DNA from: Chamaelirium japonicum
Taxonomy: Eukaryota; Streptophyta; Magnoliopsida; Liliales; Melanthiaceae
Assembly: GCA_947650365.1 (NCBI GenBank)
Contig: OX393553.1
Span: 37,229,526 to 37,293,525, forward strand
Direction of reading: 5' to 3'
Length of the DNA: 64,000 nucleotides
A program made the position numbers and the translations under genes. This document shows, in pieces, positions 5,329 to 40,026 of this stretch (positions are counted from its first letter, which is position 1; each line of letters begins with the position of its first letter). Below the pieces are notes generated by a model. The model did not search any database and was not told where the DNA came from. It saw only the letters and a list, made by a program, of their open reading frames with translations.

Positions 5329-8300
5329 TCACAATCTGAAGTCACAGAAGCAATCAGGCAATGCAGAACCCCTGCCCATCACCAATTCATACCTATGCTC
5401 CATCCACATCGCCTCCGCCAACTCCTCCCCGCTCATCCCCTTGGCGGCACAACTCGCGAAAGTCCTCCTGTTCAAGAACAGAGTCCTATTCAACCCCTTC
5501 AGTGCTCTCATGGCGGACACCATCTTGTCCATGTTCCCGAAATAAGTCGCCACATAAGCATCGCTGTGTACAGAAACATAGTAATCCAGCGCGGCTTTCG
5601 TGTTGCCATGCGCACGCGCAAGATCTCCACCACCGAGAAGAGAGGATTTGGTGTGCACATTGGTGTAGACAGATGTCAGGCCTTCAATCTCCATCAGTCC
5701 GTCTCCAGCTGCCAAGTAGATCGTCGTGTTCGTTGGGATGGCAAGAGCTTGAAGAATGAGTGCGGTTTCACTCGGCGTGAGGGGGCACTTCCCGCGGCTC
5801 CTCCACGCGCGGGCGGCGTCGCCCGTCCACGGCTTCCTGTCTCCGCGCGAAGCTTCTACGGAGTTTAATGCCGCGGAAGACAGATTGGGGTACTGGCATT
5901 GGCTGTAGGCGACCATGTCTGGTTCGAATCTGAGGTGAAGGGACAGGAAGGGTTTAGGAATGGTGTCGAGAAGCTCGGAGCCTTTGGCTTCCAAGGCTTT
6001 GTTGAGGCGCAGTGCCTTGTAACAGGCTTGACAGAGGGCTGCCTTCGCATAAAAAGGATATCTGCAACATCAGACAGAATATTTGATAAGAACAGGCCTG
6101 CTTCTCTCACCATTTCCCACCTACTGAATAACATAAGGGCAAATTACACTTGACCCCTTGAGGTTTATGCTTAATACACTTTACCCCCTGAGGTTTCTGA
6201 AACTACCCTTTACACCCTGTTTATTTTTTGATTCAAAACTTATTAAACACATGCCTTGTATAATCACGAACATATAATAAGGGGTATTTCATACTTTTGG
6301 GCATGTTATCATGATAAAATGATCATTGGAACTCAACATTCTAGTGGCAAATCTCAATTTTAAAGATTGTTCTATTATTATAACATGCCAAAAAGTATGA
6401 AATACTATTTATTATATGTTCACCTTTAGATGCGTCATATTCTTAGTAAATTTTTAACAAATAACATGATTAGCAAGGGACAAAGTGTAATTTTAGAAAC
6501 GTAGGAGGGGAAAGTGTAATAGGCATTAGGCCGGCCAATTAGGCCCTCCAAGAAGGGCACCCATCCCGGCCCGACCCGTCAAAGTCCGTATAAAACCCGG
6601 CCTGCCCAAAGCCCTGCCCGGACCTTCATTTTCAGTCACCGGGTTGGGCCCGGGCTTAGTGTTTTCCAGCCCGACCCGACGACAGTATATAAATATATAA
6701 TTATATATATAATAATTATATATATTAGTTTTTTTTATATAACTAAGAGGAGGGGGGCTCATGGGCTGAGGGGTTGACAGGATTGACCCAGATTGGAACT
6801 GAAACACCTCTCTCTCTCTCTCTCTCTCTCTCTCGCTCGCTCAATTGATTTGAAAAGGATTTCAAATCCGAGGCGATATAAGTTAACATTTTTTTTTTTG
6901 TTATCTCTCTCGCTCAAACCCTAACCCTAATATGAGCTTCAGTCCACCGACTACCTCTCTCTCTCTAGTTGTCTGTCTCTCGACTCGGATCGGATCATCG
7001 CCTCGATGCCTCCAAAGGATCGGATCATTACCTCATTTTTGTTCAGTTGTTTTACTTTGGGTTTTTTTTTTTGGTAAACACTTATGGTGGTGTGGATTTT
7101 GTTAGGTAAAGATCATATATTCTCTCTCTCTCTCTCTCTTAATTTCTCAACCCAAATCTGATTATTGGACTTATTTATCTCTTTTTTTTTTTGGCAAAAA
7201 TTTTAGGTAAATGTCAACTAATCTCTTCACTAGTTTGTTTTCTGTAAAAAGTTTGGATAAAATTTGTTTTTGGGTAAAAAATTTGGGTAATTATAGGCCC
7301 GGACCCGGCTTGAACCCGGACCCTTGAAGGGCCGGGGGCCCATGTTTACCTAAGCCCGGCCTAGGCCCGCCGGTATATAGAAGGGTCTGGCCTAGGCCCG
7401 CCGGTATATAGAAGGGTCGGGCCCAGGTTTACCTAAGCCCGGCCCGTTGACAGCCCTAATAGGCATAAACCTTAGGGGGTCAAAGTGTAATTTACCCATA
7501 TCATAAAGATTGCACTTAGAAACAACAGTCAATGTCGCGACTTGATAGAAATGACTGTCAACTGCAAACTGAATAAAAATATAAATATCGTGTGATTATT
7601 GCTAACATATAGATGGAAACATTACAAGAGTTAAGCATGTAAACTAAGACTGGTAATTTCACAGGGTTATAGGCTTCAAGATGATTGATCCATGAGGCAA
7701 TGTAACCAAGAAGAAAGTAACTATGAGATCATTCATTCATTGATTCCTGAGTACACTCAATCACCTTCCTTTAAATAGGCATTTTTGAGTTAACTGCAAG
7801 AAAAGACATGACTTAAGATGCAGGACAAGACATGACGGGAAGACGCTAGAAAATCCGCGATTTAACATGACTTTAAGATGCAAGAAAATCAATAAAAAAT
7901 AAGTTAAATGTTTTTAAAGAGAACGAACAAATAAAAATTTAATTGAACACCCCGGATATAAAATTAATTAACCTAATCCTAGACTCTTATCTAATCTTAA
8001 TGGAAGGAGGAGGAAGGAGATGGAGAGGGAGGAGGAGGACGAGGAGGAGAAGGACGAGGAAGGAGAAGGAGAGGGAGGAGTTAACTGGATTAGATCGTCG
8101 ATCAGAAAGGTTTGATCGGATTTTTTTATAACTTCCTTTTCATCAACTCGATTGTCTATGTTGCTACATCAGTCACTCAAATGGGGCCAATGGAGGGTCT
8201 TCTGCTGCATTGGTTCCATCTATTGGTCGCCCTCCTCCATCAATATGTCAATGGCTACATATTTAATCACTAAATCAACACTTGGTTTAATTTTGATTGG

Positions 8301-10680
8301 CGGAACATTTCTTATTAAGCTCCGTATCCAATCACCCCTGCCCATCATCTTCTTAAGCAACCGATAACCATATATTGTCATGATGAAGTCTGTAGGATTA
8401 TCGAGATGTAGCAACTCTTAGAAACCCGTTTTGATTGAAAATTGGTGCAAAAAAGTTGGATTGAAGAAAATTTCTGCACAAATAAGAAAAGGAGAAAGGA
8501 GAGAGAGAATAGAAGGGAAAAAAGTGGCTGCTGAATCCACAACCTGGATCGAGTTCATGAGCGAATAAATAACTAGAAAATAAGGAAAAAATAGTATAAC
8601 TCTTTCATATATTCATAAATTTCATGAGATTATACCACACAATCGCCCTACTTTATGTAGGGATTGACATGACATAGAACCTTCGAAAAAGACATGACTT
8701 AAGATGTAACAGAGTGATGTGAGACATGAATGCAGAAACAAGAAAAGATGTGACTTAAGACACAAGAAAAGGTGCAACTCAAATGCAAGAAAATAATAAG
8801 GTTTAAGTTTTTAAAATAAAATCCAGTAAATACAAAACAAAATTTTAAACTAAGTCTTGATCCGACAAAAAAAGTTAGTTTAACCTAAGCCTAGACTGCA
8901 TCTAACCTAATTCTAATCCTACAAGTTAGATCAAGATCAGATCTTCAATCTAATCAGGATAAATGAAACTTTTCAAGTAGCCTTGGTGAACCATGTTGTA
9001 AGAGAATATGAGAACTATTAGAAGACTTATGTTGCACTAACGCTACAAACCTGATGTAGTGTCAAAAATTGTGATCCCATAAATCGACCTGCTAGGCATA
9101 TGCGGGAATTCTATCTCAGTAGTTGTAGTTCAACACTGCAATCAACATAATAGGAATTGGACTTTCCCTCTCATTAGGTTTATCTTCTTCCTCGACTCAT
9201 TTCTATGTGTCCCCAAAATCATACAAATAGTTGTGTTGCCCTTTATGTAGGTAATACTTCTATAGGCTCTCTATTGGTATCTAGAGATTATCGAAACAAA
9301 AGTGATAATGTGTGCCGACCTTCACCCGCTTTCAAATGAAATTAAACCCCAATGAAGAACCCATTTAACCTATGGACAGTTGCTGTATAACTTAACACAA
9401 TAAATAATAGCAACACTAATCCACTTCTAAACATTCTAATAACAAACTAAAAGCAACACCAAAAATACAAAACATAACAAAAACAAATTCCTTAAAGCAT
9501 TCCCCCAGAATAAATATTTGTTTTTGCGTCAGTGGATTAGATAACCATTTAAAGCGATGCCCAACTCAAGACACACAAGAAGTAAAACAAACCCACATGT
9601 TAAGATACCAAGAGTGAATGGGTGAAAAGATGCCCTTTGCGATCATACTTGCAACTATTTCACAAAACATACTAAAGAAGCATGAAATTCTTACAAGAAG
9701 GCATCGAGCAATACCTATCTCTTCTTTGGCTCATTGCTGGTGTGATGGAGATATAGTGGTGTTCCAAGAGAGAGGGAAGAACCTCCTCGACGTAATCAAA
9801 CAGCCCTTTGCGTTTGCTGCAGTCCACTCTCAACGGTTCTCTCGACCCGATCTCCTCCGGCAACTCCTTCACCATATCTATGAAACCCTTTGTTTGTTGA
9901 ATGAAGTACTCCACATCAAACACATCCGCAAACCCACTGATCGAAACTTCCAATCAGTACGAGTACAGAACTAGGGCTTGGGCGCAATAAAGATGATTTC
10001 CACCCCATCCCATATAACTATACCTTGATTCATTCCAGTATGCAGCGACCTCGAACTTCGGCAAGACAAGGGTTGCGTTCAGAAGTCGAGCGATCCCGAC
10101 GCCATCACACAACTAGAATTCGCCACAACCATGGGCCTATCAGATCATCAACTTCCCAGAATTTGCGGGAGTGGGTAAAGGAAGGTCAATTTGAACTCCG
10201 GGACCTAACCCTAGATTAGGAAATACTCACATCGCGTCTCATCTGATTGAGGCCGCCGTAGCAATCGACCCTGATGTAGCCGTTGCTTCTCGCCGGCAGA
10301 GCTGCAGCATTTCAACACATAAAAACCAATGGAATCTGCTGCATTGGAGCCATTTGAGAATGATTCAGGGGTGAAATAACGAGCGTCTAAACCCAACAAA
10401 AATAAAAAAAAAATCAATGAATCTGGTTCCACTGACCTGTTGGAGCTCGATCCTTCCACCATCCGCATGGTTTCCATCCGACGGCCCTGCGGGCGCTCCA
10501 GATCTCCGATCTCGGCGGCCTTTTTAGCGGGAGATCGGAGCCAGAGAAAGGGAGGGGTGTGCCGGAAAACGGCGAGGATGAAGAGAAGAGGATCGCGGCG
10601 AGGAGGAGCACAATGAGGAGGAGGAGCGCAATGACAGGGGAGAGCGGTATCATGCGATGGCGCCATGGTTTCGAGGGCAT
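5329..10680 (-). CDS. Plant O-fucosyltransferase / GT106-like Golgi glycosyltransferase, complete
   Basis: Five exons on the minus strand: 10437-10680, 10231-10301, 10024-10112, 9715-9936 and 5329-6061. The phases agree throughout and the total is 1359 nt, or 452 residues plus stop. A type II signal anchor (about residues 10-32, MIPLSPVIALLLLIVLLLAA) predicts Golgi membrane location. Then come WSARRAVGWKPCGWW, NGYIRVDCYGGLNQMRRD, the LLNATLVLPKFEVAAYW segment, and FRVDCSKRKG-type and LLEHHYISITPAMSQRRDR motifs. HLRFEPDMVAYSQC is at about 251-264, with CPLTPSETALILQAL and GRGSALPDCFCDF near the end. These are the hallmarks of the plant GDP-fucose O-fucosyltransferase-like (DUF246) family, which includes the GT106 pectin rhamnosyltransferases, so the donor sugar cannot be fixed from sequence. 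The gene looks intact. Its 3.65-kb last intron (6062-9714) holds nested DNA transposons. Confidence 0.95.
6137..7497. mobile_element. MULE-like element with long TIRs, interrupted by a hAT-like element
   Basis: The left end GGGCAAATTACACTTGACCC continues through CTTGAGGTTTATGC. The right end is its near-perfect reverse complement, finishing at 7497. The 9-bp flanks ATAACATAA (6128-6136) and ATATCATAA (7498-7506) agree at eight of nine positions. Long inverted repeats and a 9-bp duplication indicate Mutator-like elements. Without the inner insertion it would be about 430 bp and has no transposase. It sits in the last intron of the O-fucosyltransferase gene. Related copies are at 41594-41843 and about 49105-49358. 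Confidence 0.75.
6527..7457. mobile_element. hAT-like non-autonomous element nested in the MULE
   Basis: A 931-bp insert is flanked by the duplicated AATAGGCAT (6518-6526 and 7458-7466), with imperfect inverted termini rich in GGCCCGG/CCGGGCC. Subterminal blocks of Pro/Gly-type GC-rich sequence, including a direct repeat of GCCCGCCGGTATATAGAAGG (7365-7420), surround an AT-rich core. No coding capacity was found. Confidence 0.65.
7498..9714. other. Rest of the last O-fucosyltransferase intron
   Basis: AT-rich intron sequence. Two diverged stretches (about 7790-7960 and 8680-8930) share AAGACATGACTTAAGATG and CCTAGACT/CTAATC phrases and look like an old direct duplication, possibly remnants of an LTR pair. 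No gene or intact element is recognised. Confidence 0.35.
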
Positions 10681-20625: not shown

Positions 20626-23600
20626 CCATCTGTGAGAGGGGAGAGGAGGAAACCTCTGCCCCTCCCCATCTTGGGAAAACCATGAGCAGGGGGGAGGCTT
20701 ATTTTGGTTATAGATAAATGAGGGGGAGGGGATTTCAGGTGGATTGAGCTCTCATACTTCCTCATGTGGATTTGGATTTGAACGATGCATAATTTAATTC
20801 GTCGAAGAACACTTGAGGAAAAATAAGGGTTTCTTTTACCAAAATTCAGATTTGTGATTTCTCTCCCAAAAATCCCTTTTAATGAGATTAGGGTTTCATA
20901 GAAGACGCATAGGAGCCATTAGATCAAGCAGAGGGACCCCGTGTTATGAAGGGGATGGATAAGGCTCCATGAGGCTAAACAGGCTGAAAGGCTTCCGTTT
21001 TAGTATAGTGTTGCATATCAACCCGTGTTATGCAAGGGATGGATACTATGGGTATGTTGCCGCTCATGAGATTTGGTCTTACGAAGGGGTCTCCATAGCC
21101 GTCCGATGGCATGAATTGCACTTGACCCCAAGTTTGTGCTCATTGCTTCATTTTCTTGTCAGAAGAGGGATCCACGTGGCACCATACAGCCCAAAATGTG
21201 GTGGCACCCATTTGATAGTTTTTCGTTTTATATATTAGTGTTAGATAAATAGGTGGCAGCTCCGATCCTTATTTTAATTATTGTTTTCCTCTCTAGGGGG
21301 AGGTTCCACATGGCACCAATTATATTATAGTATTGGCCAGTAAGAAACCCGGGTAATGCCCGAATGAAGTTGATGCATGCCATTTAGCACAGACGACATC
21401 ACAGCCATCCAAAAAAGTGTGCAATCTAGACGATTCGCTCATCCATGTTGATTTACTTGTTAGAGAGAGAAAGAGAGATAATACTAATGATTTTTCTAAT
21501 TAACATCAAATGACCATTAAATACCATTGAATGGGTATTTATCATCTTTATAGTAGGTTTTTAATAGGATTTATGGGAGAGAGCCACATTCACACACGGG
21601 AGAAGGATTCTGGCTCTTCAAAAATGGTCCACGTGTTGAGGGCTCCATTTTAGTATTAGATATTAAATTATATTAGATCTATGCTACAATATAAGGCGGA
21701 ATTTAATTTATTTTTTTTTTAGATTTTCCCATGTAGCCTAAGTTGCTTGTATTAAGTGTCCGATGTTATCGGAGCCGTCCATGGAGGGTATAGCTGGTTC
21801 CTTTTTTTTGAGTGGTAAATTAATATATTAAAACAAGAAGGGGAGTTACAGACCACAGCTTAACTCAGGACGAGCAAGCAGAAACAAAGGCAAAAGCTCT
21901 AACAAATGAGCAACAGACATGCTCATCAAGTGAGCAACACAGACCAAACAACTGATGAAGCCATGATAGCATGCTAAGCACTTGCTTCTCTGGCTAGCAA
22001 ACAAACACTCACCAAGAGTAGCACAAAGTCAAGCCAAATCAAGAAGAGGTAAAGAGGCGAGGAAGATTCGTCGAAGAAGGTTTTCTCGATTCTGCGATTC
22101 CGCAAATAACACTCGAGGAAAATAAGGGTTTCTTTCACCAAAATTCAGATCTGCGATTTCTCTCCCAAAAATCCCTTTTAATGAGATTAGGGTTTCATAG
22201 AAGACGCATAGGAGCCGTTGGATCAAGCAGAGGGACCTCGAATCTATCCCGTCCAAAGAAGGAAAGGAAAGAGAGAGAGGGAGAGAGAACGGACCGGACG
22301 GATGGGCCGTCCGCTCCTGCCCGCGAGCACACATCCCGAGGAGAACGTGCCGAAGAAAGGAGAGTGTGCAGCTAGGGTTAGGGTTTCTGGGTTCTCTTGG
22401 CCTCCTTTTGATCCCATCCATCCATCCTGGAGGATTTTTAATCACGTCTATTGATCGCGACTTAAAGTCCTTTTAATCTCATCCCTTGATGAGACCCATC
22501 CGATGATGCCTATTTATTTTATTAATTAGCCACTTAGCAAAGTTGGTGCGAACACAACTCTCGCACCTGAGTTAGCTTACAATAGAAACGATCATAACTT
22601 TTGATCCATACATCCGATCGACATGAAACAAAAATGAAAGAGCAATAAATGAACTAATTATTTTTCTGATCAGCTGCATCGATTTCCGTGCACAACTGAA
22701 AACAACAATCAGCTTTTCTGCATGCATCAATTACTATATACAAGAATTCCACGTTGAGTAGGACTCATATAATTAATTAGGAACCCTTTTTGAACTATGA
22801 ATCCTGATTCCTAATTGTGGATTCTAGGGAACCCCTTCTTTGTCTTGCTCCTTGATCATTTGTGATGGATGACTACAACTTCAGCAACACTAGCTGCGAA
22901 AACCCAAACTGTTGCTCGAGCTACTCTAGAATTACATATCTGATGACTCTGAAGTCTGAAAATAACATAAGAGCTACCAAATTACTAGTCTAGCTACACA
23001 CAGTATATGAGGGCGGCCTCAAACACATTTCAAGTTCATAAAAGAGAAGGTACCATGGAAGGCTTTGTGGGTGTGTGCTTGTGCGCGTGTTTGCATACAT
23101 GCGTCCATAAGTGTGCGTGCATGTGTTTACTTGAAGGGAGTTTCCATTTAGCGCGACCTAGATAAGAATCAATTGTGAAGTAGGAGTGGTAAAGCTAGTC
23201 CCATATAATTGATATTCTTGTTTTTGCCTTTGTAACCCCATTTCATTTGGAAGCAAAATCTCTTCAACCGACATGATTGGATCGGTTGACGGATTTGTAA
23301 ATTTAAAACCGGCCTAAACCGAACCGAACCGAACCAACATATGCATATATACATATAATATTCATTAAATATACCATATGTCCTCATATGCCCTTGCTAC
23401 TGACAACCTTTGCAATACTATCGGATGATTCACAATCAGTTAAACATCTTATTTAGGCGAAATGATTTGACAACAATTATTATTTTTTAAGTAGAAACTA
23501 GGTCCTAATAGAAGAAAAAAAAATCCCAATAAGCATATGAGCCAAATCCCAAATCGATCATCCAATCCAATCCAAACCAACTTTAATTGGATTGGTGATG

Positions 23601-26600
23601 CAGACATCTACATCGAGCCGAGCCCACGGCGCTTGTACCAGCACAGGAGGCGCCATCTGAGCTTGTGGTTGTGATCGGCTAAGAAGAGCCCACCCCAGTT
23701 ATTTGCATTTATTTTGTCTTTTAGTATTTCCTGCTTTGAGTTTAGTCCCACCTCGCCTGCCGGCTATCTGGGTTAGTTATTGTAAGCCTATATAAAGGCT
23801 CCTCTTTGTTCCTTTGTAGGCACTGAATAATAAAATAAAATTTTTGGTTTCCTCCACTTTGTATTGAGAGACTAAGGGCAAGGCGTGTGAAACCCTAACC
23901 CTAACCCTAACCCTAAGCCTAGGTGTGTGAAACCCTAGGTCAGAACTAGAGGTGTGAAACCCTAGTCTGTTTTACCTCCCATCTTCCCATCAGCTCTCTT
24001 CTCCGTCTCTCATCTCTCCCCTTTCTCTCCGTCCACACCCCAGTGCCACCCACCCCTCCTCCCTGCACGCTGCTCGCGCCCGCCAACAACCCGATCCCCC
24101 CCCCCACTCCTCCCGAGCCCCATCCCTCCTCCCCTCTCCCTGCGCCCCAGCCCCCTCCCCTCCCCGCGCTACAGCCTCGACCGACCCCTCCTCTTCCCTG
24201 CCCTGTAGTCCGCCCCCAAACCCGACCTCACCCCTCCATTTCCTTGCCCCGCGCCCAGTCATCGGCCCACCTCCTCCTTTCCCTTCCCCCCCTGTCCCAG
24301 CCCGACCCCGACCCCCGCCTCCCCTCCCCACAGCCCACGTCCAGACCCGCCGCCCCTCCTCCTCGCGACCCGCGCCCAACCACCCCGCCTCCCTCTCCAC
24401 CTTCCGTCTCCCTCTTCCTTGCGGCTCGTGCCTGACCACCCCTGCCTCCTCTCCTCTGCCCAACCCGCACCACCCCGACTCCTCTGTAGTCTCGCGCCCC
24501 CCGCACCACCCCGACTCCTCTGTAGTCTCGCGCCCCTCTAACCTCCCCTTTGCCCATCCCTTTTCCCTCAGTCTCGCAACCAACCCCAACCCAACCCGAT
24601 CCCACTCTGTTCCAAACCCGTGACCCCGATTCCATCATCCTCGGTTGACCCGGACGCTAATCACGGGTTCGATTGAGGGCGCTAACGGCTGACCCGGACG
24701 CTGATCACGGGTTCGATTGAGGGCGCTGACGGCTGATCCGGACGCTGATCACGGGTTCGATTGAGGATGCTGACGTCTCCCCGGATATTTGATCACCATT
24801 TTCGGAGTTCCTGCTCGATTCGGGTTCCTGAGACCAAGCGTGATCCTCAGTAGATACGTCTCTTCCTAGTAGGGTATTCCCGGTAATTCTATTAATCGGG
24901 TCTCCAGCATCTTATCTGTGCTGACTGCTGTCCACCATCGTGAGGTTGTGCATCCCCACCTGCCTGTTAAGTTCATTAGTTCTCGATATTGCGAGACGGA
25001 CTTTTGCCGCTTAATTTAAGCATTGTTTATTTTAATTCTTGGAACCAAGACCGAACTGCCCGATGCTAGTAGTTTTCTTTTAAAACCCATTATTCCCTAC
25101 TGATAGCTTGAACTTAAATTTCCTGCCTGAAACTTTTAATTTATAATGAACACCGCTAGTACAATTGAACTACTGATTTTCTGTTCACCTGCATCGTTTT
25201 GCATCATTTTGGTATCAAAGCATGGTCGTAGCTAGATCATTCGCATTCCGCACCTGGTCCCGTATCTTGCATTCATCTGGTTAGTTCTTGTGCATTAAGG
25301 TAATATAAAAAAAAAATTTGCATCATTTTGTGGATTGTCATTGCATGCCAACCCGTAGGGGTAGGCCATACCTATTAGGAGAGTTGAGTAAGTCTGACAG
25401 TTGCAATATGGATCCCGAGGCACTGACTAAGGCACTTGTCGAGTTAGCTCAAAGTATAGCAGCGATCAAGGTTCGAAATCTCCATTTCGGTGGAAATTTT
25501 GACCTTCTGGATATGGAAATATTTCGTGGAAATATTTCGACAGTGTGGAAATATTGCATTTTTACAGAAATGGTGGAAATATTGCTTTTTCGAAGGAATT
25601 TTTTAATGAAACTCTAGATAGTCATAAATCAAGCATAGATACACACTTTGGAACACTCAAATAATATTTCTACCCTGTTTAGGGGGGTAGAACTTCACAT
25701 ATCATGTATTCTATGCAGGCGCTGCTGATTTTTATGCACACTGTACAGATACATCTCACTCGGGGGTTTAAAGATATGATATCCAAAGTCCAAACAACGC
25801 AAAATGATATTTAATAATATTGATTAACTTACATGAACAATTATAAGTTTATAACTAAGCTGGAATAATATATATACATTATTTTCATCACGAAGAAGTA
25901 AAAATAATCATTCATCATCACTTGTCCATGTAATGACATCATTATCAGTATTTTCTTCTTCACTCGTAGTCCATGTAGGTACATCATCATCATCCCTTGC
26001 CGGACCAGCTCCACTACCGCTTGCACTGGCATCATGAGCAAACTGTGTCGGCATCCATCCTCTCTCAGCTCGCTCCCGCTGAGAGTGTCTCGAATCTAAG
26101 ACCGCCTGTCGAAACTGAGCCTTCTCCTCTTCTGTCTCAATATCTAGCGGGTACTCGATATCATCTGAATGACTCCTTGTTGATAGAGTGTTGGTATGTC
26201 GGGAGTCTCGGGACTTCTCGATCCGTCCCTTCTTGGGTTGCCTAGGGGTTCGATGTTGAACTCCTTTGTCTCCGCTTCTCAATAGATTGCGCATGAATAC
26301 TCTGACTTCAAGCGGAGCCTTCAAACACTCTGCTACATCGGGGAAACAGCCGGCGATGTGCTGTTTCAATCGTGTAACACCTCCACTTCCGATCTGTTTG
26401 CCACAATATGCACACTGTGACTTCTGTTTCTTTGTGTCCAAGGGAAAACCGTGCTGCCACCCTATGTCTTTTAACCCAGAATCTCTATGCGGAGGAGGTT
26501 GGGAGGCCATCTGTAAATGATAATAATTAATAAGTAATATTGAACTATAAAAGAAGTCTAAACTGATGAACGAGTGAACGACTAGCCATCTTATAAGAAT

Positions 26601-29600
26601 AGTTGGTTGAAAATACAGACTATATATCCAAAAGGACCAAAACCCAAAAGTACATAAGAAATTAAGAATACATCATCAAAATTCTAATGAAACATCAAAT
26701 CTACTGCCAAAATGATCGGCGGCCCGGCTCATAATCATTTCTTGGATTTCGCCTCTGGTAAATGGATGCAAGATAATCTGTACAATAGTGTTGCCATGTC
26801 ATATACTGCTGGTGCCACTGTATAAACTCTCTCACATATTGCTCATACTCTGGTCCTGACACCCCAACCAAATATCCAATCACCGGATACTGTGTATATA
26901 AAGCGATGGTGACCCCTCCATCTGTATGGGGATATACAACTGCACTTTCAGTTATCGGATGATCATATCCATATGGATACAGTTGATATCCCTGAGGCTG
27001 AGGCTGAGGCTGAAGCTAAGAGCCATAAGAACTACCGCTCTAGTCACGATATCCATATGGAGAGTAGAAAATCCCTGACCATAATTGTATCCACCGTATC
27101 CGCCACTGGTCGTGCTTATCTCATCAAACTGAGACGATAATGAGTCAACCTCTTGGCTCCGATGAGTAGATGTGGAGCTATCTCTATCAGTCTGTCTCGG
27201 AGCACCTCGTCTACGCTCATAATGTCTTGCCCTCTTCTGTCGTGGATCAGCATGATCACGATCCTGAGTAGCATATTCAAACCGATCTTCTCCAGTAAAT
27301 GGGCTTAATGGTCTCTGTGATCCCGAAGCACCACCACCACCACTGCCTCCACCGCCACCGCCACCGCCACCACCACCACTGCCCCCATCGCCACCACCAC
27401 CGCTAGGAACATCATCACTACCACTATGACTATCATCAGAATCCTCATCGGTGCTACTGCTACGAGCCTGCGTCTCTAGGTCTGCAATATCTATACCCAT
27501 CTGTGAGGCGATGTATAGGCTCGGTCTACCTGAGGGGGTGTCCATAGCTGGAGATCCCAACTCCTTAACCCACTCATATAATGGGTCCTCCTCTGCGTCT
27601 CCAGAAAAAATATCGCTAAGATCGATCGGTCCCATGTCCCTGTCCTCTCCTTCTTTCAAATTTCTTATCATTATTCGTAAATTATAGTGCACGCGTACAA
27701 GTTTCTCCAACCTCTCATGCCCCAGCCTGTTCCTTCTTTTAGTGTGGATCAACCCAAACGTGCTCCAATTACGTTCACAACCGGATGATGAAGCGGTTTG
27801 TGAGAGGACTCGGACGGCAACTTGGCGTAGATTTGGGGCCGAAGTGCCATAAGTTACCCACCATTCAGCTACATTAATAAAAAAAATATCACTAAGTAAA
27901 TCTTAACAAATAAAAAAAGTGTTTATGATTTTTATTCATGATTTAAGTGTTTGACCTGGTTGTGTTAACTGTCTCCCACTTATTGCAGCTGGTATCGCGA
28001 AGCTACCCATCGCATCCCTAAAGATCTTCAACTACAAGATTGAGGGAATTAAAGCTTTAATGAGAAATACTCAATTAAAAGCTTCATCTCATAGAAATTA
28101 AAATGTGTAATCTATTTACAAGATTACCTCACTAAGACAGATCGCTTGTTCATTTGGATCTGATACTAACTTCGCAACTACATCTTGAATCCCTTTGAAT
28201 CAGGTCATCTCGAATTCCAAGATCGAGATTATAGTGATACATCGGATTCAAATAAAATGCTACAAAAAAGATTAGATAATCATCACAGTTATAATGATAA
28301 GCTCTAATTATACCACGTTAGGGATAGATTCTTACCAGCCTTATGTAAGGGATGTTGTAGCTGTGTTGTCCACCTTTTCTCAATGATCTTTAATATCCAA
28401 TCATGAGAACGATTGGTTTTCAATTGATCTTTCATCAGATCAATAGCACGATGCATATATCCCATGGTGGGCTTCTTATCTCCATCCACCATCCGCAATA
28501 CTTTCACAATAGGGTCGAGAATATCGACAACTTCACGGACTTTAATCCAAAATGCAGACTGCCCAACCAAGTCCTCAATATTTACACCAGCATGTCGCCC
28601 CTGATATTGCAGCCACTCTGGAGAAGTAAACATTGCCCTAAGACTATCTTTCTTATCGAGCAAGCTCTGTAGGGCTATATAGTTGCTTGCAAATCTAGTG
28701 AGACCCTGTCTCACAATATCCCCCCCACACTTCTCCCTCATCATAGCAAGCACATAACTATGATTATAGATGAAGTTTGTTATTGTTCTCGCCATCTGCA
28801 CCAGATTCTTTACTTTACTCTTCTTTCCAATATCCTTAAGCATCAAATCTATACAGTGAGCAGCACAGGGGGTCCAGAACAAGTTATAGCCACTTGTTTC
28901 CATGAGCTTTTTTCCAGCTTTCAGATATGCACTACCATTATCAGTGACAATCTGCACCACATTCTCTTTTCCTACCATATCTACAACTTCTTTCATCAAT
29001 TCATACAAATATTGATGATCCTTTATATGTGCAGACGCGTCAACTGATTTAAGAAAAATCGTTTTTCCGTCACTGCATGCCATAAAATTGATTAGTGACA
29101 TGCGCGTGGGACCTGTCCAACCATCACACATGATAGTAACACCATATTGTGGTCATTTCTTCTTTAAGTCCCCCATGTATTCTCGGAGATCGTCATCCTC
29201 CTGATCAAGAAGTGGGTTCATCAACTCATATGCACTTGGACGTTTCACTCCTGGTCCACACCTACCAGCCTCATCAAGCATCGTCTGGTAAAAGGGATTA
29301 TTAGCCACTGCATTAGGTGGCAAACCCCCGTAGTGTACAAATCTAACAATGAACTTGTGCAGTCTAGCCTTAATCCCCTTCTTATTTACTACTTGTGGAA
29401 TTGTTGGTTGACTCGTGTCCTGCCCTCTGCAAGCATATGGATCAAAACTTGACCGTGAAGACTTGCTTTGCCTCATAGACATTGAGCGCCATAAGCTACC
29501 AATACCCTTCCCCCCATGGCTAGTACCTCGAGTACCTGAACTTCCTCCGGTCTCACGTACAGAATGACCAAAATCAGGTCTCGTACGCTCTATCATTTCT

Positions 29601-32600
29601 CTCTGATCCCGTTCCCACTGTTCGGCACGGGACATATGACTTGCCTCTCTAAAGGCTGGATCATCATCGTCAGAGTTCTCTTCAATACGGATAGGGGCAG
29701 CCAAAGTCTCTCTGAATTGCTCCTCAGCCCTCCGCTTATCCAATGTCTTATCCTTACTTGTTCTGAGCACATCACTCATTAAATCTCTAACCTCTTTTGG
29801 ACATTTTGTACACTTCTCTACATTTGGAAAACCTCCAGCTAAGTGTTGTTTCAGTCTGGCTACCCCGCCACCCTTTAAAATCTTTTGGCAATAGTTGCAC
29901 TGTGACTTTGACTTATCACCAGCTACTGCAACACCGTGTTCCCATCCAATATCTTTCTTTCCCATTTTACTGTAAGTCTGTAAAAATGATATTAATTTAC
30001 AAGTTAATTCATGTTACTTTAATAGTCAACAACTCTAACCAAAATCTCTAGATTATGGGGACTACAGACTAGACACACATACACAAGTGTATGTGCCGAG
30101 CTTTCCCTACTAGAGTCTTGATTAGATGATTACGGTGATCCTATGAGTGTATGTGCAATAACAATAAGGTATCAAGATATATTCGACTTTAGATATCCAA
30201 TTGAATAGTCTAAGGCGCAACGGCTAGATCAGTTCCGGATCGGTGGAGGAGCACTAGGCTCTCTTAAATACCACCTTTCTTAGACAAACTTTTCTTAGAC
30301 ACCGTCAATCAATAGAATATTCAGTGGAAATGTTACAGTCGATTATATCGAGAAACCTAAGTGCAAGAAGTGTTCTAAATAAAGTCGTTTGATCGTTTCT
30401 ATCGTTATAACTCTTGAATGTTTATTTATTTTAAGATTTTATCTAATATTTATATTTTATCTAATATAATTTATAAATGAAAGTTCACCTTCAATGTGTG
30501 ACGTGTCTATCTATTTAGATTTTATAAAATATGCAGAACGCATAATAGATGTTAATTTTTTATGCGATGAGTTTAAGATTGCAAGCTCTATTGTTAATAA
30601 TGGATCCGTAAATAGAAATAACACATACGGACATACCTTTGTTATAAGATTTCTTACGAGTTATGACTCAAGCAGTCAAGCTTTCACTTCTATGCTTCTA
30701 TTCAAGGGCCAATGCTCACAAGCGTTTGCACCTTTGTACAGCCAAAACAAAAGAGAGTTAAAAGCCCGATAGCATCTAATGATCTAAATAACCAAAACAC
30801 TAGCTATTAGCTTAAAAATATCCACCGAAAAATAATATTTTGAACCGATATCACCGATAATACTTCGCAACCGGCCTTCGCACGGATAGCAATGCATGCA
30901 AAATACAATTAATGCATCGGTGTTGTGATCGAATTGCTTCAAAATTATGAGTTAAATTTTGATGATAATAAACTATTTTTATGCATAATTATGTTCCACA
31001 GATACTTGGATATTTAGAGCATTGATACCCTAAAGAGAGGCCTTATCTATCAAAGAATCCCAATTTCAACCAAACTCAAAGTGCATCCTACTATGGTCCT
31101 ATCAGTTGAGATAATATAGTCCTATGAATCCCAATTTCAACCAAACTCAAAGTGCATCCTACTCAAAGGGGTTTCCTAGATCGATCTAACCAGGAGGTCT
31201 GATCGGGCTCCCCGAAGAATTTCAGTCCTTTGACCGTCCAACCGGTCTAACACAAATTTTGATCGGTTTTATTTTAGAATGATCAAACTCTAGAGCATAA
31301 TCAAGATCGGTTTGGTTCTAGATTTAGGGTTTACAGATGTATACATTGAACCCGTCATATTAAAAAAAATCGATCAGTCAGATTTTAGATATATGTCTAA
31401 TTCCATTTTTTTACATAGTTTTCTGGGAAACCTTTTCAAACTTGTACAAATATATCAACAAAGTTTTGAAGAAAATCCGTTTATAAATTCTTTGATTAAA
31501 CATTTCGGCAAGTATGAATGATTAAATCAAGCAAATAAATAAATAAGATATGTGAACAAGCGTACATATCTGTGTTCTCATTTTGGGTTTCTTTTACAAA
31601 CTGGTGAGCACTAATTTGCATAGAGTGTGTGCAAGTTGCAATCTTGTGCAACCTTGTGCGTACCTCTAAGTGCAAGTCAGTGTGCACTGTGCACCACATA
31701 GGCCATAGGGGCTTGTGCGTAGTGCGTACAGAACCCAGTTTTTGAATTTTACAAAAACCAGTCTCATCGTTTTTGAATTTTACAAAAACCAAGTCACAGT
31801 AAGGAATAGGGAGAGAGGAAGAGAGACGGAATTCGTACCTCTAAGGAAGACGGAAGTGGGACTGTGTGAGTCGTGTGACTCACTTCGGCTTCGGCTTCGC
31901 CTTCGGCTTCGGCTTCGGGAGTGGGAGAGGGAGGGAGTGGGACGAAGTCACTTCGGCTTCGGGCCTTTGGCTACGGGAGTGGGAGAGTGAGGGAATGGGG
32001 GGGGGACTGTGGTCTGTGGGAGGAATGGGAGGGAGGGGCTTTAAATAAAAAAAAAATTCGGGCCAAAAGGGTTCGGCTTCGGGAGTGGGAGAGTGAGGGA
32101 ATGGGGGGAGGGGGGAATGTGGTCTGTGGGAGGAATGGGAGGGAGGGGCTTTAAATAAAAAAAAAATTTCGGGCCAAAAGGGTTCGGCTTCGGGAGTGGG
32201 AGAGTGAGGGAATGGGGGGGAGGGCTTCGGGAGTGGGAGAGTGAGGGAATGGGGGGGAGGGAGGGGCTTTAAATAAAAAAAAACTTTCGGGCCCAAACAA
32301 AAGACTGAATGACCGAAACCAGAGCTGCTGCAGTGGCCACCGAAAGTGAAAGCGAAGCAGGGAAACAGCTGGCCGGATTTTTCGGGCCAAAACAGCGAAA
32401 CAACGAAACCGAAGCGATATTTCGCGATATCTCGCGTGAGATTTCGCGAAATATCGCGACCGGGCGAAAATTTCGCCAGCTACAGCACGTGGGGTGGGCC
32501 CCAGCTGTCGGAAGAAGATTCCGTTCCGCGATATTTCGCGTGATATATCGCGAAATATCGTCGATATATCGACGCCACGTGTCGGTTTCTGCCGCGCCCA

Positions 32601-35600
32601 CGTGAAAATGGGCCCCACCTGTCTGGCGAAATAAATACCCCTAATATCGACGAGATTTCGCGCGATATATCGCGAAATATCGTCGATATTTCGCGCCAGC
32701 TGACACGCCACGTGAGATGGGACCACTGTCAGCCGATATTTCGAGATATTTCGCGTTTCCATAAATCTCGCGAAATTTCGAGCGATATTTCGCGATTTTT
32801 TTACATTTTTTATTCCGCTCGATATTGTTGCGGGATTTCGTACCGGGCTTTTGATTTTCCGAAATATTTCGCGATATTTCGCGAAATATTTCGATTTTTT
32901 GATCTATGGCAACGATGAACCAGAACCTCGCCGATTGGCAACGCGACACCAATGCTTGATTTGACCGGCTGGATCAAGCTCCACCTCAAACCCCACCACC
33001 CATGAACCCTCAAGATTTTCGGCCACCCTGGCAGAACAATCAAGACCCGGATGAACAATATCTTCGGAGCATCAGGTTAGAGGTGCCCTCTTTTGATGGC
33101 AGGCACGACCCCTAATTCTTTTTGGACTGGCTCCAGTCCATGGACCGATACTTTGCCTGGTACCTGAACCGCGGAAACTGCGATTCGTTGCCATGAAGCT
33201 TAGTGGACCTGCCTGCCAGTACTGGACCAATGTCGAAGCTTTAAGAGTCGCTCGAATCCAAGATCCCATCGACACTTGGGCCGCAATGAAGAATGAACTG
33301 AAGGGAAAATACGTGCCTCCGTCATATTAAGTTCGTCTATTGGATCAATGACACCAGTTCACCCAAGGCAATAAGTTCGCCAAGGACTACGTCGCCAAGT
33401 ACGACGAATTTTTGACTCGCTGCAACGTCCTGGGGACTGAAACCCCTATCCAGGTCCTATCCCGTTTTCGGTCAGGTCTGAGAGAAGACCTGAGGAATGA
33501 ACTCCTTGCATGAGATGTTACAGAGCTAGAGAGAGCCTACGCCTTAGTTCAAGATCTTGATAGCATTAAGTCCAACCACTCCCATCGGGGCCCAGATTCC
33601 CGAAGCAATGTCCCTCGGCCCTCCTCGAGCAACTACCCAGTCCTACCCTAACCAATTCCAAACAAGAGCTGATACCCCGGGTGATGTGATCCGACTTGGG
33701 CCCAAGCCCGTTGACCCACCCGAAGGCCCATCCTAGCCTGCCATGGATGAATAAGGCAAGATATCTCTTATGATATCTTTTACAATCTTTTTTTAATTTG
33801 AGATCTTTATTTTAGGCAAGTTGTTAGGATACTTATTGGCTTTTAAATTTGTTGCCATCTTTATCTTTTCTTTTAGCCTATTTAAAGGCCTCCATTGTAA
33901 CCATTGAAGGGAAGATGATGATGAATGAAAATTGATGGCGGATGCCTTCGTTGGTTCATAGATTTGAGTCCCTTACCTTGTATCCTGATGGATTTCAAGT
34001 CCCCTCTCATCTGAGTTTCTAATCTTTTCTTCTCTGTCACGGTTCTTATCCCCTCCGCCACTTCCCTCTCGGTGATTCCGTATCACTAGTTATCCTTTTA
34101 CAAAGAAAATACAAAAAGATTACACCGCCTCCATCTAACGCTCTTCGACGACGCGCGCCTGCATCAAGTAGGTATCAGAGCTCCGGGCTTCGTGGTGTTT
34201 CCATACCACGAACGATCTTCGCTTCGATCGTCGTCGTCCATCGTCATCGTCGCCGTTCCATCGTCACCATCGTCGCTGATTCGTCATCTTCTTCTGGTAC
34301 GTCGCCCTACAATCCCACCAAAAGAAAAAAAAAAGAGATCAGATCTGTTGAAAAAAAAGAAAAAGTGATCAGATCTGTTGAGAGAAAAAAAAAAGAGAAA
34401 GGAAACCTCCTTCAACCGCTACCAACCCCTTTGCTCGCCCACGCAACCACCACAAGCCACCCGCGAACCCTTCTCCTTTGCCGCCCGCCCGTCCACTGCA
34501 GGCAGCCCCCTTCCTCTCGCTCCACCCGCTAAACCGCCACCTCTTCCCGTGCTCCCGCGCACTCCGCAGCCATAAAAAAAAAAAACCCACACAGATCTGC
34601 CGTAGATCTGTGAAGACAAAAAAAGGAAAGAAAGAAAAGAAAAGGAAAGAAGAAGAAAAAGAAGAAGGAAAGGAAGAAAAAGGAAAAGAAAGAATAGAAG
34701 GGAAGAAAAAAAAAGGAAAGAAAAAAAGAAAAAAAAAGAAAAGAGAGAGAACCGTACCTGATGTGCAGCCGCTGCTGTGCTGCTTGCTGCCCACTGCTGC
34801 CGCCCTTTTCCTCTGCCCTATTTGCAAACAAGGGCCCAAACAAACCCTAAGCTATATCCCCCTTTAATCCCTTCCTTTACCTCTCATCCACACCCTTTGA
34901 TATCCATCCAAAGGCCACTAAATACAACCAATTCCCACTGTTTTTTTTAAAAGACCAATTCAGCCTACAACTTAAATTCCAGATCCGACTTTCATTTTCG
35001 GATCCAACCCGTTTACAAAACAGACCCGTCAAGACCCTACAACTTCAAAACCCCATATCTTTCTCATTTTTCATCCGATTTGAATGTTCTTGGTACCGAA
35101 TCGAAGCCATTTCCGAGCCTATGCATTCATACCATCAGCAGAAATTTTTGGCAAATCAATAATTACAGATTTTCAGATTTACCCCTGGACCACACTTCCA
35201 CCATTGTGACATGGATGCCAAGATGCAAGGGTTGGTTCGTTGTCATCAAGGGAGCAACTCCGTCTACGAGTACACTTCAGCATTCTATCGGCGCATGATT
35301 CGCTATGGTTTGTCAGAGAAAGATCTCATGGCAGTGACAGTATGTTAGAGGGCTCCGCTCCAACATAAAGGGCCAACTTTTATCTAGATCGTGAAGGGAT
35401 CTGGACGAAGCCTATGAGATAGCTTGTGAGATTGAATGGGAGCTACAACAAATGACCTTACCTCTAACGACTTCCTCAGATGGGTCGCCACCTCCAGTAT
35501 CTCTAGTGGAGCCTCCACCACCTACAGAGCTTCCTCCAGTTGTATCTTTGGTAGATCCATCACCTCCAATACCACCACCAGCAGACGAGCTCTCCCCTCC

Positions 35601-38600
35601 AGAGGATCTTCTGCCACCTGCCATGCTACCATCTACTGCGGATTCTTTCGAGGTGGTCTCCCTAGCCGAGCCTCAGCAGATTGATTTTCTTGGGCTAGAC
35701 CGACTTTTGGTGCCTATAGTGTTTTGTTCAGCTCTACCTCCATTCAGGCGAGCCGATGTTCGAGCAACCGCAGCGGTCTGATATTACTATCCGACTCGGT
35801 TGTCTACCCCAGTACCGCTGTGACATGTGTTTCCCGATCGACGACAGTGATACCTTCTCATGGGACCTCGGTGATGACTTCGGTATAGTGAGACATCATT
35901 TGTTGGGCCTCCACCATCAGCTCCTGACGACAGAGACCACATCGACGAAGGCCTCGATGCTGACTGCACCTTACCGTATGAACTCGAGGGCGAGTTCTTC
36001 GCAGCGGAAGCGAATGATGTGATCCGACTTGGGCCCAAGCCCGTTGACCCACCCGAAGGCTCATCCTAGCATGCCATGGATGAATAAGGCAGGATATCTC
36101 TTATGATATCTTTTAGAATCTTTTTTTTATTTGAGATCTTTATTTTAGGCAAGTTGTTAGGATATTTATTGGCTTTTAAATTTGTTGCCATCTTTATTTT
36201 TTCTTTTAGCCCATTTAAAGGCCCCCATTGTAACCATTGAAGGGAAGATGATGATGAATGAAAATTGATGGCGGATGCCTTCGTTGGCTCATGGATTTGA
36301 GTCCCCTACCTTTTATCCTGATGGATTTAAGGCCCCCTCTCATCTGAGTTTCTAATCTTTTCTTCTCTGTCACGGTTCTTATCCCTTCCGCCACTTCCCT
36401 CTCGGTGATTCCGTATCACTAGTTATCCTTTTATAAAGAAAATACAAAAAGATTACACCGCCTCCATCTAACGCTCTTCGACGACGTGCGCCTGCATCAT
36501 CGGGTCAAGGCATTGATAAAGACAACCGAGGCAAAGGCTCCGAGAGGGACTTCTCCAAAGTCAGCCCTCTCATAAAGTGCTATAAATGCCAATGCTACGG
36601 TCACGTGGCTGCCAACTGCCCAAGCCCTGTCAAAGTCAACATTGTTGATGGCACCTCCATTGAAGCGGTAAACCCAGGAGAGGCAGAATTCATCTATCAA
36701 GCTGAAGGAGATGGAGACTTTGATGACGATGATGATGAGGCAGTTCTGAGTTGCCTTAGACAGATACCTTCTCCTACTATGTCAGTTGTCAGGTGCGCCC
36801 TGTCTCAACCCAAGAGTCCAGATGACTGGAGACGTAGCGCCATTTTCCACACTTTCACTAAGATTGGGGATAAGAACTGCAAGGTCATTGTTGACAGCGG
36901 CAGTTGCATCAATGCTGTGTCATCAATCGTGATCTCCAAAGCAGGACTCAAAGTCATTCCCCATCCGCGTCCCTACCAAGTGTCCTGGATCAACTCCACT
37001 GTTATGGAGGTCAAGCAAAGATGTCTAGTGCCCATAAAGTTCAACGTCTACCAGGACAAAATCTGGTGTGATGTCCTGACCATGGACGTGGGTCAGATTT
37101 TTCTGGGACGACTTTGGCTGTTTGACATGTGTCTATTTGAGTATGAGGGTAAGAAAGTGAAACTGATTCCCTCCCAACCTAAGAGTAGTCAGACCGAGCA
37201 AAATTCAACCCTAGACAGGGAGGCTCTCAAAAAGCATGATTTGGCCCTAGTCGTGGTAGACTGGTTCTCTGGGATACCTAATTTCCTACCTTGCTCCAAA
37301 ACGTCTGATACGTTCCGAGTCGCTAAGATATTCTTTGACGGTGTCATCAGATTACCTAGGCTGCCTAAGACCGTTGTGTCCGATAGGGATGTCAAAGTCA
37401 CCAGGTTCTTTTGGAAGACCATGTGGCATAAATTGAGAATCAAGCTTCAATTTTTCACTGCATTCCATCCTCAAACCACTGGTCAAACCAAAGTTGTCAA
37501 TCTGAGTTTGGAAAATCTCCTGCGAACTCTAGTAGGTGAATATGTTGGGAGTTGGGATCTTAAACTGCCCATAGCCAAGTCTGCATGTAATACATCTGTC
37601 AATAAAACCACTGGCATGCGTCCGCATGAAGTCGTGCATGGTTTCAAACCTTGTCAACTTATAGATCTCATTCCCATGAGTCCATGATTGATTATCGTAG
37701 TGTCTCAGAGTCTGCATCTGCATTTGCATCTCTTATGCATGAATTACATAAGGAAATCAGTAGCCAAATTGAACAAAGTAATGCTGGCTATAAATTACGA
37801 GCCGATGCGCGGAAACGACTTCAAATCTTCAATGTGGGAGATTACGTGATGGTCCGGATTCGTCCGGAACGGTTTCCTTCGGGAGCTATTAAGAAGCTAC
37901 ATGCAAGCAGTGCAATTCCTTTTCGGGTTCTAAGAATTAAAATGGCTAATGCTTATGTTATTGAATTGCCTATGGGTTTTGGCATCAGTCCCATCTTCAA
38001 TATTGAAGATCTAATGGCTTATAAGGGCCCATATTTTAACATTAGAAATCCGTTGATAGATGAGCCTACCCTGGACTCTGCCTCTGAGAGCCCCTCCTTA
38101 TCTCCACTCCCAAAAATTCCCCCAAATGATACAGCAAAAGGCATTGATAAGATTCTGGATGGCGAGATTGTCTCTAGTCGGGACGGTGGAATCCGGCGAT
38201 ACCCGATTTGCTAGAAAGGAAGGCCCCCTTCTGAGGAGCCTGGATTGAGCGTCAGGGACCCCAGCAGATGGACCTAGATCTGCTGGAGCTGCACGAGAGG
38301 CATACCGAGCCTTACTCGACAGGGTCGAGTTCTCTCACCCCAGGAGAATGATGCAGACATCTACATCGAGCCAAGCCCGCGGCGCTTGTACCAGCACAGG
38401 AGGCGCCATCTGAGCTTGTGGTTGTGATCGGTTAAGAAAAGCCCACCCTAGTTATTTGCATTTATTTTGTCTTTTAGTATATCCTGCTTTGAGTTTAGTC
38501 CCACCTCGCCTGTCGGCTATCTGGGTTAGTCATTGTAAGCCTATATAAAGGCCCCTCATTTTTTCTTTGTAGGCACTGAATAATGAAATAAAACTTTTGG

Positions 38601-40026
38601 TTTCCTCCACTTTGTGTTGAGAGACTAAGGGCAAGGCGTGTGAAACCCTAACCCTATCCTTAGGTGTGTGAAACCCTAGGTCAGAACTAGAGGTGTGAAA
38701 CCCTAGTCTGTTTTACCTCCCATCTTTCCATCAGCTTTCTTCTCCATCTCTCATCTCTCCCCTTTCTCTCCGTCCACACCCCAGTGCCACCCACCCTTCC
38801 TCCCTCTCTGCTCGCGCTCGCCAACAACCCGATCCCCCCCCCACTCCTCCCGAGCCCCATCCCTCCTCCCCTCTCCCCGTGCCCCAGCCCCCTCCCCTCC
38901 CCTCCCCGCGCTACAGCCTCGGCCGACCCCTCCTCTTCCCTGCCCTGTAGCCCGCCCCCAAGCCCGACCTCATCCCTTCCTCTCCTTGCCCCGCGCCCAG
39001 TCACCGGCCCACCTCCTCCTTTCCCTTCCCCTGTCCTAGCCCGACCCCGACCCCCGCCTCCCCTCCTCGCAGCCCACGTCCAGACCCACCGCCCCTCCTC
39101 CTCGCGATCCATGCCCGACCACCCCGCCTCCCTCTCCACCTTCTGTCTCCCTCCTCCTTGCGGCCCGCGCCCGACCACCCCTGCCTCCTCTCCTCTGCCC
39201 AACCCGCACCATTCCGACTCCTCTGTAGCCCCGCGCCCCTCCAACCTCCCCTCTGCCCATCCCTCCTCCCTCAGCCTCGCAACCAACCCCGACCCAACCC
39301 GATCCCACTATGTTCCAAACCCGGGACCCCGATTCCATCATTCTCGGTTGATCCGGACGCTGATCACGGGTTCGATTGAGGGTGTTGACGGCTGACCCGG
39401 ACGCTGATCACGGGTTCGATTGAGGGTGCTGATGGCTGAACCGGACGCTGATCACGGGTTCGATTGAGGATGCTGACGTCTCCCCGGATATTTGATCACC
39501 ATTTTCAGAGTTCCTACTCGATTCGGGTTCCTGAGGCCAAGTGTGATCCTCAGTAGGTATCTCTTCCTAGTAGGGTATTCTCGATAATTCTATTAATTGG
39601 GTCTCCAGCATCTTATCTGTGCCGACTGCTGTCCACCATCGTGAGGTTGTGCGTTCCCACCTGCCTGTTAAGTTCATTAGTTCTCGATATTGCGGGACGG
39701 ACTCTTGCCGCTTAATTTAAGCATTGTTTATTTTAATTCTTGGAACTAAGATTGGACTGCCCGATGCTGATAGTTTTCTTTTAAAACCCATTATTCCCTA
39801 CTGATGGCTTGAACTAAATTTTCTGCCTGAAACTTTTAATTTATAGTGAACACCGTTAGTACAATTGAACTACTGATTTCCTGTCCACCTGCATCGTTTT
39901 GCATCAATTGGATTCCAATCTCAAATCGGTTTGAAAATCCTCAAAACCTATCAAGGTTGGATTGGTTTGGGTTTTGCCTAAATACCTTGGTTTCGAACCG
40001 ATGCACACCCCTAGTGGAAAAGTTCC

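Follow-up and report, generated by a model that had tools for sequence, protein, structure and literature searches.

The hAT element and its two genes

The DNA analyzed here is a stretch of 64,000 nucleotides of the Chamaelirium japonicum genome (contig OX393553.1, positions 37,229,526 to 37,293,525), referred to below as the window. It contains a hAT transposon of 7,442 bp on the minus strand, with the 5′ end (CATAGATC...) at 32908 and the 3′ end (...GAACCTTG) at 25467. From 5′ to 3′, the element consists of subterminal repeats, a presumed promoter and leader, a transposase gene of four exons, a spacer of 190 bp, a 200-codon gene for a BED-finger protein (called BED-only below), and a 3′ end that again bears repeats. 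A preliminary description of this DNA had reported a transposase followed about 190 bp later on the same strand by a separate 200-residue BED protein with an acidic tail. The order of the genes, the 190 bp between the transposase stop (26701) and the BED-only ATG (26510), and the Pfam domains agree with it, and the acidic tail was seen as well.

The BED-only protein was used as a query against the genome (1.52 Gb in 3,253 contigs), which gave 150 scored matches. Ten-kb stretches at the 20 best-scoring further matches (A-type copies) and three copies of subfamily B were compared with the window copy. As the A-type copies were the highest-scoring protein matches, intact frames are over-represented among them. 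Subfamilies A and B are about 75% identical in DNA and have a common layout. Judging from the 150 scored matches in the genome and the conservation of the frame between the subfamilies, chance is excluded as the origin of the two-gene arrangement.

The element is bordered by a target-site duplication (TSD) of 8 bp with one mismatch, GCAGCGAT at 25459..25466 and GCAACGAT at 32909..32916. Perfect 8-bp TSDs, as expected of hAT elements, were found in 22 of the 24 copies examined, the other two being the window copy and A01, which has none. The inverted ends are imperfect in the window copy and perfect in copy B2 of subfamily B, which has CAAGGTTC at both ends; the A-type 5′ ends read CATAGATC, CACGGTAC, CATGGTAC or CATAGTAC, as against CAAGGTTC at the 3′ end. 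Terminal inverted repeats of the hAT superfamily are of the CARGG type, and the short repeats of this family belong to it.

The transposase gene starts with a long exon 1 (28336..29965), which encodes the BED finger, the start of the catalytic region and DUF659. It is followed by exon 2 (28128..28259), exon 3 (27956..28031, 76 nt), and exon 4 (26701..27868), which encodes the hAT C-terminal dimerisation region and a low-complexity tail, all on the minus strand. The preliminary description held the transposase to be broken and the small gene to be intact. The window copy has three true lesions, namely one in-frame TGA in exon 1, a length of 132 nt in place of the 131 nt of other copies in exon 2, and a deletion of about 50 bp in exon 4 relative to other copies. 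Most of the breaks, however, are three introns, whose positions are identical in all 15 full-length copies. Of these, 13 retain every one of the six GT/AG sites; one acceptor is changed in A11 and one donor in A20.

In Pfam, one piece of the window transposase matched zf-BED and the next DUF659 (E 1.4e-41), while its C-terminal piece gave no match to hAT-C. The uninterrupted frame of copy B2 has the full domain set of a hAT transposase: zf-BED (4.3e-6), DUF659 (7.6e-50) and Dimer_Tnp_hAT (5.9e-13). Catalytic acidic residues and a C-x-x-H are motifs of hAT transposases; CDGW, DNGS, CAAH and CERNW were read by eye in the B2 protein as candidates for them. The spliced frame is uninterrupted in seven of the 12 full-length A-type copies, window counted (A02, A04, A08, A10, A11, A16 and A20), and interrupted in the window copy, A01, A07, A09 and A12; in subfamily B it is uninterrupted in one of three (B2). 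An uninterrupted frame together with all six splice sites is found in five of these seven (A02, A04, A08, A10 and A16) and in B2. The upstream gene is read as an ordinary four-exon hAT transposase. Since its frame is uninterrupted in other copies, the small protein did not outlive the transposase in the family as a whole, contrary to what had been proposed for the window copy.

The BED-only gene (25908..26510, minus strand) encodes 200 residues with a BED finger at residues 18–52, a predicted helix at 127–151, and a disordered acidic C-terminal tail with a repeated W-T-S-acidic motif. Its open reading frame matched zf-BED alone above the Pfam cut-off (E 1.9e-7). Tails of this acidic pattern, which recurs in both subfamilies, resemble acidic activation domains. 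The frame is complete in 16 of 21 A-type copies (199–200 codons) and in three of three B-type copies (200–201 codons); it is shortened in A04, A06, A10 and A12 and lacks the stop in A07. The AlphaFold model had a predicted template modelling score of 0.35, with 10-residue blocks of the finger reaching a mean predicted local distance difference test score of 90, a less certain helix 127–151 and a disordered tail. The sequence search of the PDB with BED-only gave no match up to E 1, and the Foldseek search of the model against the PDB gave none at E 0.001; its best match (E 0.31, BIR domains) was taken as uninformative.

Residues 12–169 of BED-only align to residues 2–144 of the transposase. The identity of BED-only to the transposase N-terminus is 43%, compared with 76–79% between the window BED-only and its B versions; from these values BED-only is therefore judged to be an old diverged paralogue of a transposase N-terminus. 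It would have arisen before the A/B split from a copy of that N-terminus and then gained the acidic tail. The same alignment could be expected if another transposase, decayed or nested, had BED-only as its 5′ exon, a case the preliminary description had raised by asking whether the frame continues into hAT catalytic exons elsewhere. We regard this as scarcely credible. All 24 copies that were read across the 3′ end show the element ending about 440 bp (A) or 350 bp (B) beyond the usual position of the BED-only stop, so that BED-only is not such an exon; this stop occupies the same position in both subfamilies (lost in A07), and the purifying selection described below contradicts this reading as well.

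Beside copy A03 (L011, near 9243–9812), a third, decayed BED-only lineage was seen on the opposite strand, with 36% identity over its length and 58% in the finger.

Direct repeats of about 1.6 kb each (23596–25206 and 38349–39906), 89.7% identical, lie on either side of the hAT element. The element is read as a nested insertion in an older long terminal repeat (LTR) retrotransposon, with these repeats as its LTRs; the surrounding element is so named only because two such repeats enclose the hAT element. No long gag frame was found in the flanks joined across the insertion, and the right flank, translated in the expected frame, is interrupted by stops.

Pairing of the two genes and deletion derivatives

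In the first set, both genes were found in 11 of the 20 A-type copies and BED-only without the transposase in nine, while the three B-type copies all have both. Among 20 BED-only matches of lower rank, sampled systematically, 14 had the C-terminal tail of the transposase within 900 bp upstream. A query with the catalytic part of the transposase gave 144 scored matches out of 2,349 candidates; a listed BED-only match 0.5–8 kb downstream on the same strand was counted as a partner. A partner was listed for 45 of the 49 transposase matches with at least 85% identity (window included), usually at a distance of 1.8–2.0 kb, for 28 of 40 matches with 70–84%, and for one of 13 below 70%. These numbers exclude another 42 rows, 41 of them at about 49–51% and one at 62%. 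The doubt that other copies might lack the second gene was thus not borne out: the small protein belongs to the element, nearly always accompanies the transposase, and is kept in many copies that have none.

One more distant relative was read. Copy L052 (G000:C6:5493960-5501260), about 51% identical in the catalytic part, has a BED/DUF659-type transposase frame, and the 3.1 kb that follow its last long transposase frame gave no BED-only match. From this single-gene relative, the second gene appears to be a derived trait of the A/B lineage. The L052 family, apparently of single-gene type, accounts for about 40 nearly equal-scoring rows among the scored transposase matches, most of them with long open frames, and therefore looks recently amplified.

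The termini were examined with the last 250 bp of the element as queries, taking the best 40 of 2,502 candidates for the A-type end and the best 40 of 2,977 for the B-type end. With the A-type query, a BED-only match was listed at 39 of 40 termini and a transposase match at 23; with the B-type query, the numbers were 32 and 24 of 40. The nine termini with no listed BED-only match were read directly. Seven of them have all or most of the gene with a damaged frame (L059 up to codon 163 only), one has its last 27 codons only, and one has nothing of it. Overall, BED-only sequence is present at 78 of the 80 best-scored termini, and transposase matches are listed at 47, an unlisted match not being equal to absence, as the transposase of copy B3 exists but went unlisted. 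Short or old derivatives are missed in these numbers, because only the best 40 were scored and the query lies less than 200 bp from the BED-only gene.

All nine A-type derivatives that were sequenced lack the transposase and have kept, upstream of BED-only, a TATA-like motif and a donor-type site. In derivatives A03 and A06, the homology to the full element restarts at, or within a few bases of, the candidate splice acceptor of BED-only, and the AG is kept before the ATG.

Several further rearrangements were seen. Copy A06 (L014) has two successive element 5′ ends (starting at 5538 and 6752 of the copy), each after an identical 8 bp; between the 5′ end and BED-only lies DNA without a match to the reference element, and BED-only homology resumes near the ATG. 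Two diverged A-type 5′ ends, the window type and the A03 type (about 70% identical), are joined to nearly identical 3′ parts, which suggests that ends were exchanged between subfamilies. The B-type copies L053, L054 and L055 have a common frameshift in BED-only, and two of their three listed transposase matches are without a stop. This suggests that a lineage without a full-length BED-only protein has spread.

Constraint on BED-only and its probable role

The ratio of non-synonymous to synonymous substitution rates (dN/dS) of BED-only, which the preliminary description had proposed to compute, was 0.185–0.220 between A and B (eight pairs, synonymous divergence dS 0.60–0.66, bootstrap limits about 0.11–0.34). 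For the transposase it was 0.160–0.168 (five pairs, dS 0.83–0.89). It should be noted that every A–B pair uses B2, so the pairs are not independent. Within BED-only, the first 85 codons gave 0.10–0.12 and the rest 0.23–0.27. By these ratios, BED-only is under purifying selection between the subfamilies. The DNA identity of A11 to B2 is 86% in the transposase tail, 56% in the intergenic part, 87% in the last 15 bp before the BED-only ATG, 88% in codons 1–85, 73% in codons 86–200, 50% in the 3′ untranslated region, and 88% in the last 250 bp. BED-only is thus a conserved island at the DNA level in this pair.

A gene adjoining a conserved 250-bp 3′ end may also be a passenger without a function for the element, carried beside an end that is required in cis, its low dN/dS reflecting an older function. 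The change within subfamily A is indeed less strict, with non-synonymous to synonymous ratios of 0.47 in full copies and 0.28 in derivatives, both from small counts in a sample biased to intact frames. However, the 3′ untranslated region between the gene and the conserved end has drifted to 50% and the gene has not. We consider the passenger explanation improbable.

The 5′ subterminal region (32309..32908) contains the motif ATATTTCG/CGAAATAT 14 times in 600 bp, and its observed/expected CpG ratio is 2.08. The corresponding 600 bp of B2 have 12 copies of the ATATTTCG motif and a ratio of 2.09. No ATATTTCG motif was found in the element interior in the six copies counted. In six copies of both subfamilies, the CpG ratio is 1.9–2.2 at the 5′ end versus 0.6–0.8 in the interior. 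The 3′ subterminal region (25467..25716) has another motif, ATATTTCCA, present four times in the 3′ 300 bp of the window copy and of B2 and twice in those of A16. Such a CpG-rich end would suit an anti-silencing factor similar to VANC, with BED-only binding the dense 5′ non-coding repeats and removing or blocking DNA methylation there; VANC proteins bind short motifs that are often tandemly repeated in their own element, according to the accessible text of PMC5735166. As the high CpG content follows from the repeat motif itself, we give this role a rather low probability, though a higher one than that of a passenger.

Downstream of the repeats, the window copy has three TATA-like TTTATTTAARGC motifs followed by a C/T-rich leader (32038..32277, by pattern match only). 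All 21 A-type copies have the TATA-like motif; the three B copies lack it, and CTATTTAAA was read by eye in B2. A candidate splice donor of the 5′ untranslated region, TTAGAG|GTACGA, lies at 31837..31838, again by pattern match. In 17 of 21 A-type copies, among them all nine derivatives, the TATA-like motif is followed by one of two donor patterns; a GTAAGT site was read by eye in B2. The candidate acceptor TCATTTACAG (26511..26520) immediately precedes the BED-only ATG in both subfamilies, and its AG is kept in 22 of the 24 copies and in 18 of 20 of the systematic sample. These motifs would allow one 5′ promoter to serve both proteins, a leader exon being joined to the ATG of the transposase in some transcripts and to that of BED-only in others.

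On balance, BED-only is probably an accessory DNA-binding factor encoded by the element, which works like TnpA beside TnpD, although we hold this with moderate confidence. Its finger would bind the subterminal repeats and the acidic tail may recruit something else, so that BED-only could assist the element as an end-binding transposition factor, by activating the promoter next to these repeats, or in both ways. In Hermes, BED domains bind the subterminal repeats of the left end, and assembly with enough BED domains is proposed to be necessary in cells (PMC10368747, accessible part). In En/Spm, TnpA is a separate subterminal-binding protein that works beside TnpD, the putative transposase, and both are required, as stated in the available portion of PMC2613891. 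A duplicated BED protein fits these facts in either capacity, as a partner that binds the ends or as a promoter regulator.

A protein that occupies the subterminal repeats could instead compete with the transposase and limit the element, the derivatives then acting like KP elements of the P family. BED-only has the DNA-binding part alone, without the catalytic and dimerisation regions, its finger is homologous to that of the transposase, and many copies without the transposase keep it, in the same way as internally deleted P elements keep a DNA-binding product. In the case of KP, however, the transposase gene itself yields the truncated product. BED-only is not a truncated form but a diverged paralogue with 43% identity, a separate gene that is present and constrained in full elements too. 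Moreover, the constraint over the A–B divergence fits a benefit to the element better than repression, and the acidic tail motif, superfluous in a pure competitor, is found in both subfamilies. Self-limitation is thus unlikely, yet the strongest of the competing explanations.

Several observations weigh against an accessory factor. The expression, splicing, binding and transposition role of BED-only are predicted from sequence, and the shared-leader model rests on motifs. Neither donor pattern occurs in A07, A08, A12, A16 or any of the three B copies, and A04 and A16 no longer have the AG that precedes the BED-only ATG. Derivatives without BED-only exist, namely a 1,072-bp copy in the flank of A17 (TSD with one mismatch) and terminus L060. 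Retention of BED-only in derivatives may partly be a matter of geometry, because the 3′-most 1.05 kb of the element include the whole gene. A04 and A10 combine an uninterrupted transposase frame with a broken BED-only; together with the frameshift of L053–L055, this indicates that the BED-only protein is not needed in cis. Finally, the related family at about 51% identity has a single gene in the one copy read, and hAT transposition in general therefore needs no such protein.

A wider and more tentative proposal is that a plant hAT lineage independently acquired a two-component system of the En/Spm or VANC kind. The duplicated BED domain would then act as an activator or anti-silencer on its own CpG-rich subterminal repeats, and ‘helper-only’ derivatives, with promoter, leader donor and BED gene and without the transposase, would have spread as its carriers, the regulator rather than the transposase being most constantly kept. 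We think this possible, with clearly less confidence than the accessory role as such.

Comparison with known systems

hAT elements are usually treated as one-gene transposons with the BED finger built into the transposase. The family described here has the BED, DUF659 and hAT-C transposase, the 8-bp TSD and the subterminal repeats of Ac, Tam3, Hermes and Tol2, but differs from them by its second, separate and conserved BED-only gene. Literature searches, which left most subscription journals uncovered, gave no title or beginning of an abstract that describes a hAT element whose second gene is a conserved BED gene, and the accessible parts of two plant hAT surveys (PMC6027215, PMC2528002) make no mention of a second hAT gene. 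Two-gene copies with uninterrupted frames occur in this one genome together with a single-gene relative and with BED-only derivatives; the helper, repressor and anti-silencer readings are therefore separable by experiment.

hAT elements with other accessory genes are already published, to judge from the accessible text on hAT7 of Puccinia (PMC12730594). Like the present family, hAT7 combines a hAT element with an accessory gene; that gene, however, is a TET/JBP dioxygenase, and the TSD is of 7 bp. The VANDAL elements also are plant DNA transposons with an accessory gene, and the targets of VANC are dense repeats in their own non-coding DNA (PMC5735166, in part), but they belong to another superfamily and VANC is another protein.

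The layout resembles that of the CACTA element En/Spm, in which a DNA-binding protein for subterminal repeats accompanies a putative transposase (PMC2613891, available portion), binding by BED-only being predicted. The transposases, however, are of unrelated superfamilies, and the present family has neither CACTA termini nor a tnp2-type transposase. In En/Spm, both proteins come from alternatively spliced transcripts, which in this family motif-like sites suggest. If the accessory role is true, the DNA-binding job was split off here as in CACTA elements. The hAT-derived CGGBP and ZBED proteins are likewise stand-alone N-terminal DNA-binding parts of hAT transposases (PMC8097297, accessible part); they are host genes, whereas BED-only sits inside mobile copies with TSDs, and it would then mark a natural route from a transposon to host regulators of the ZBED/CGGBP type.

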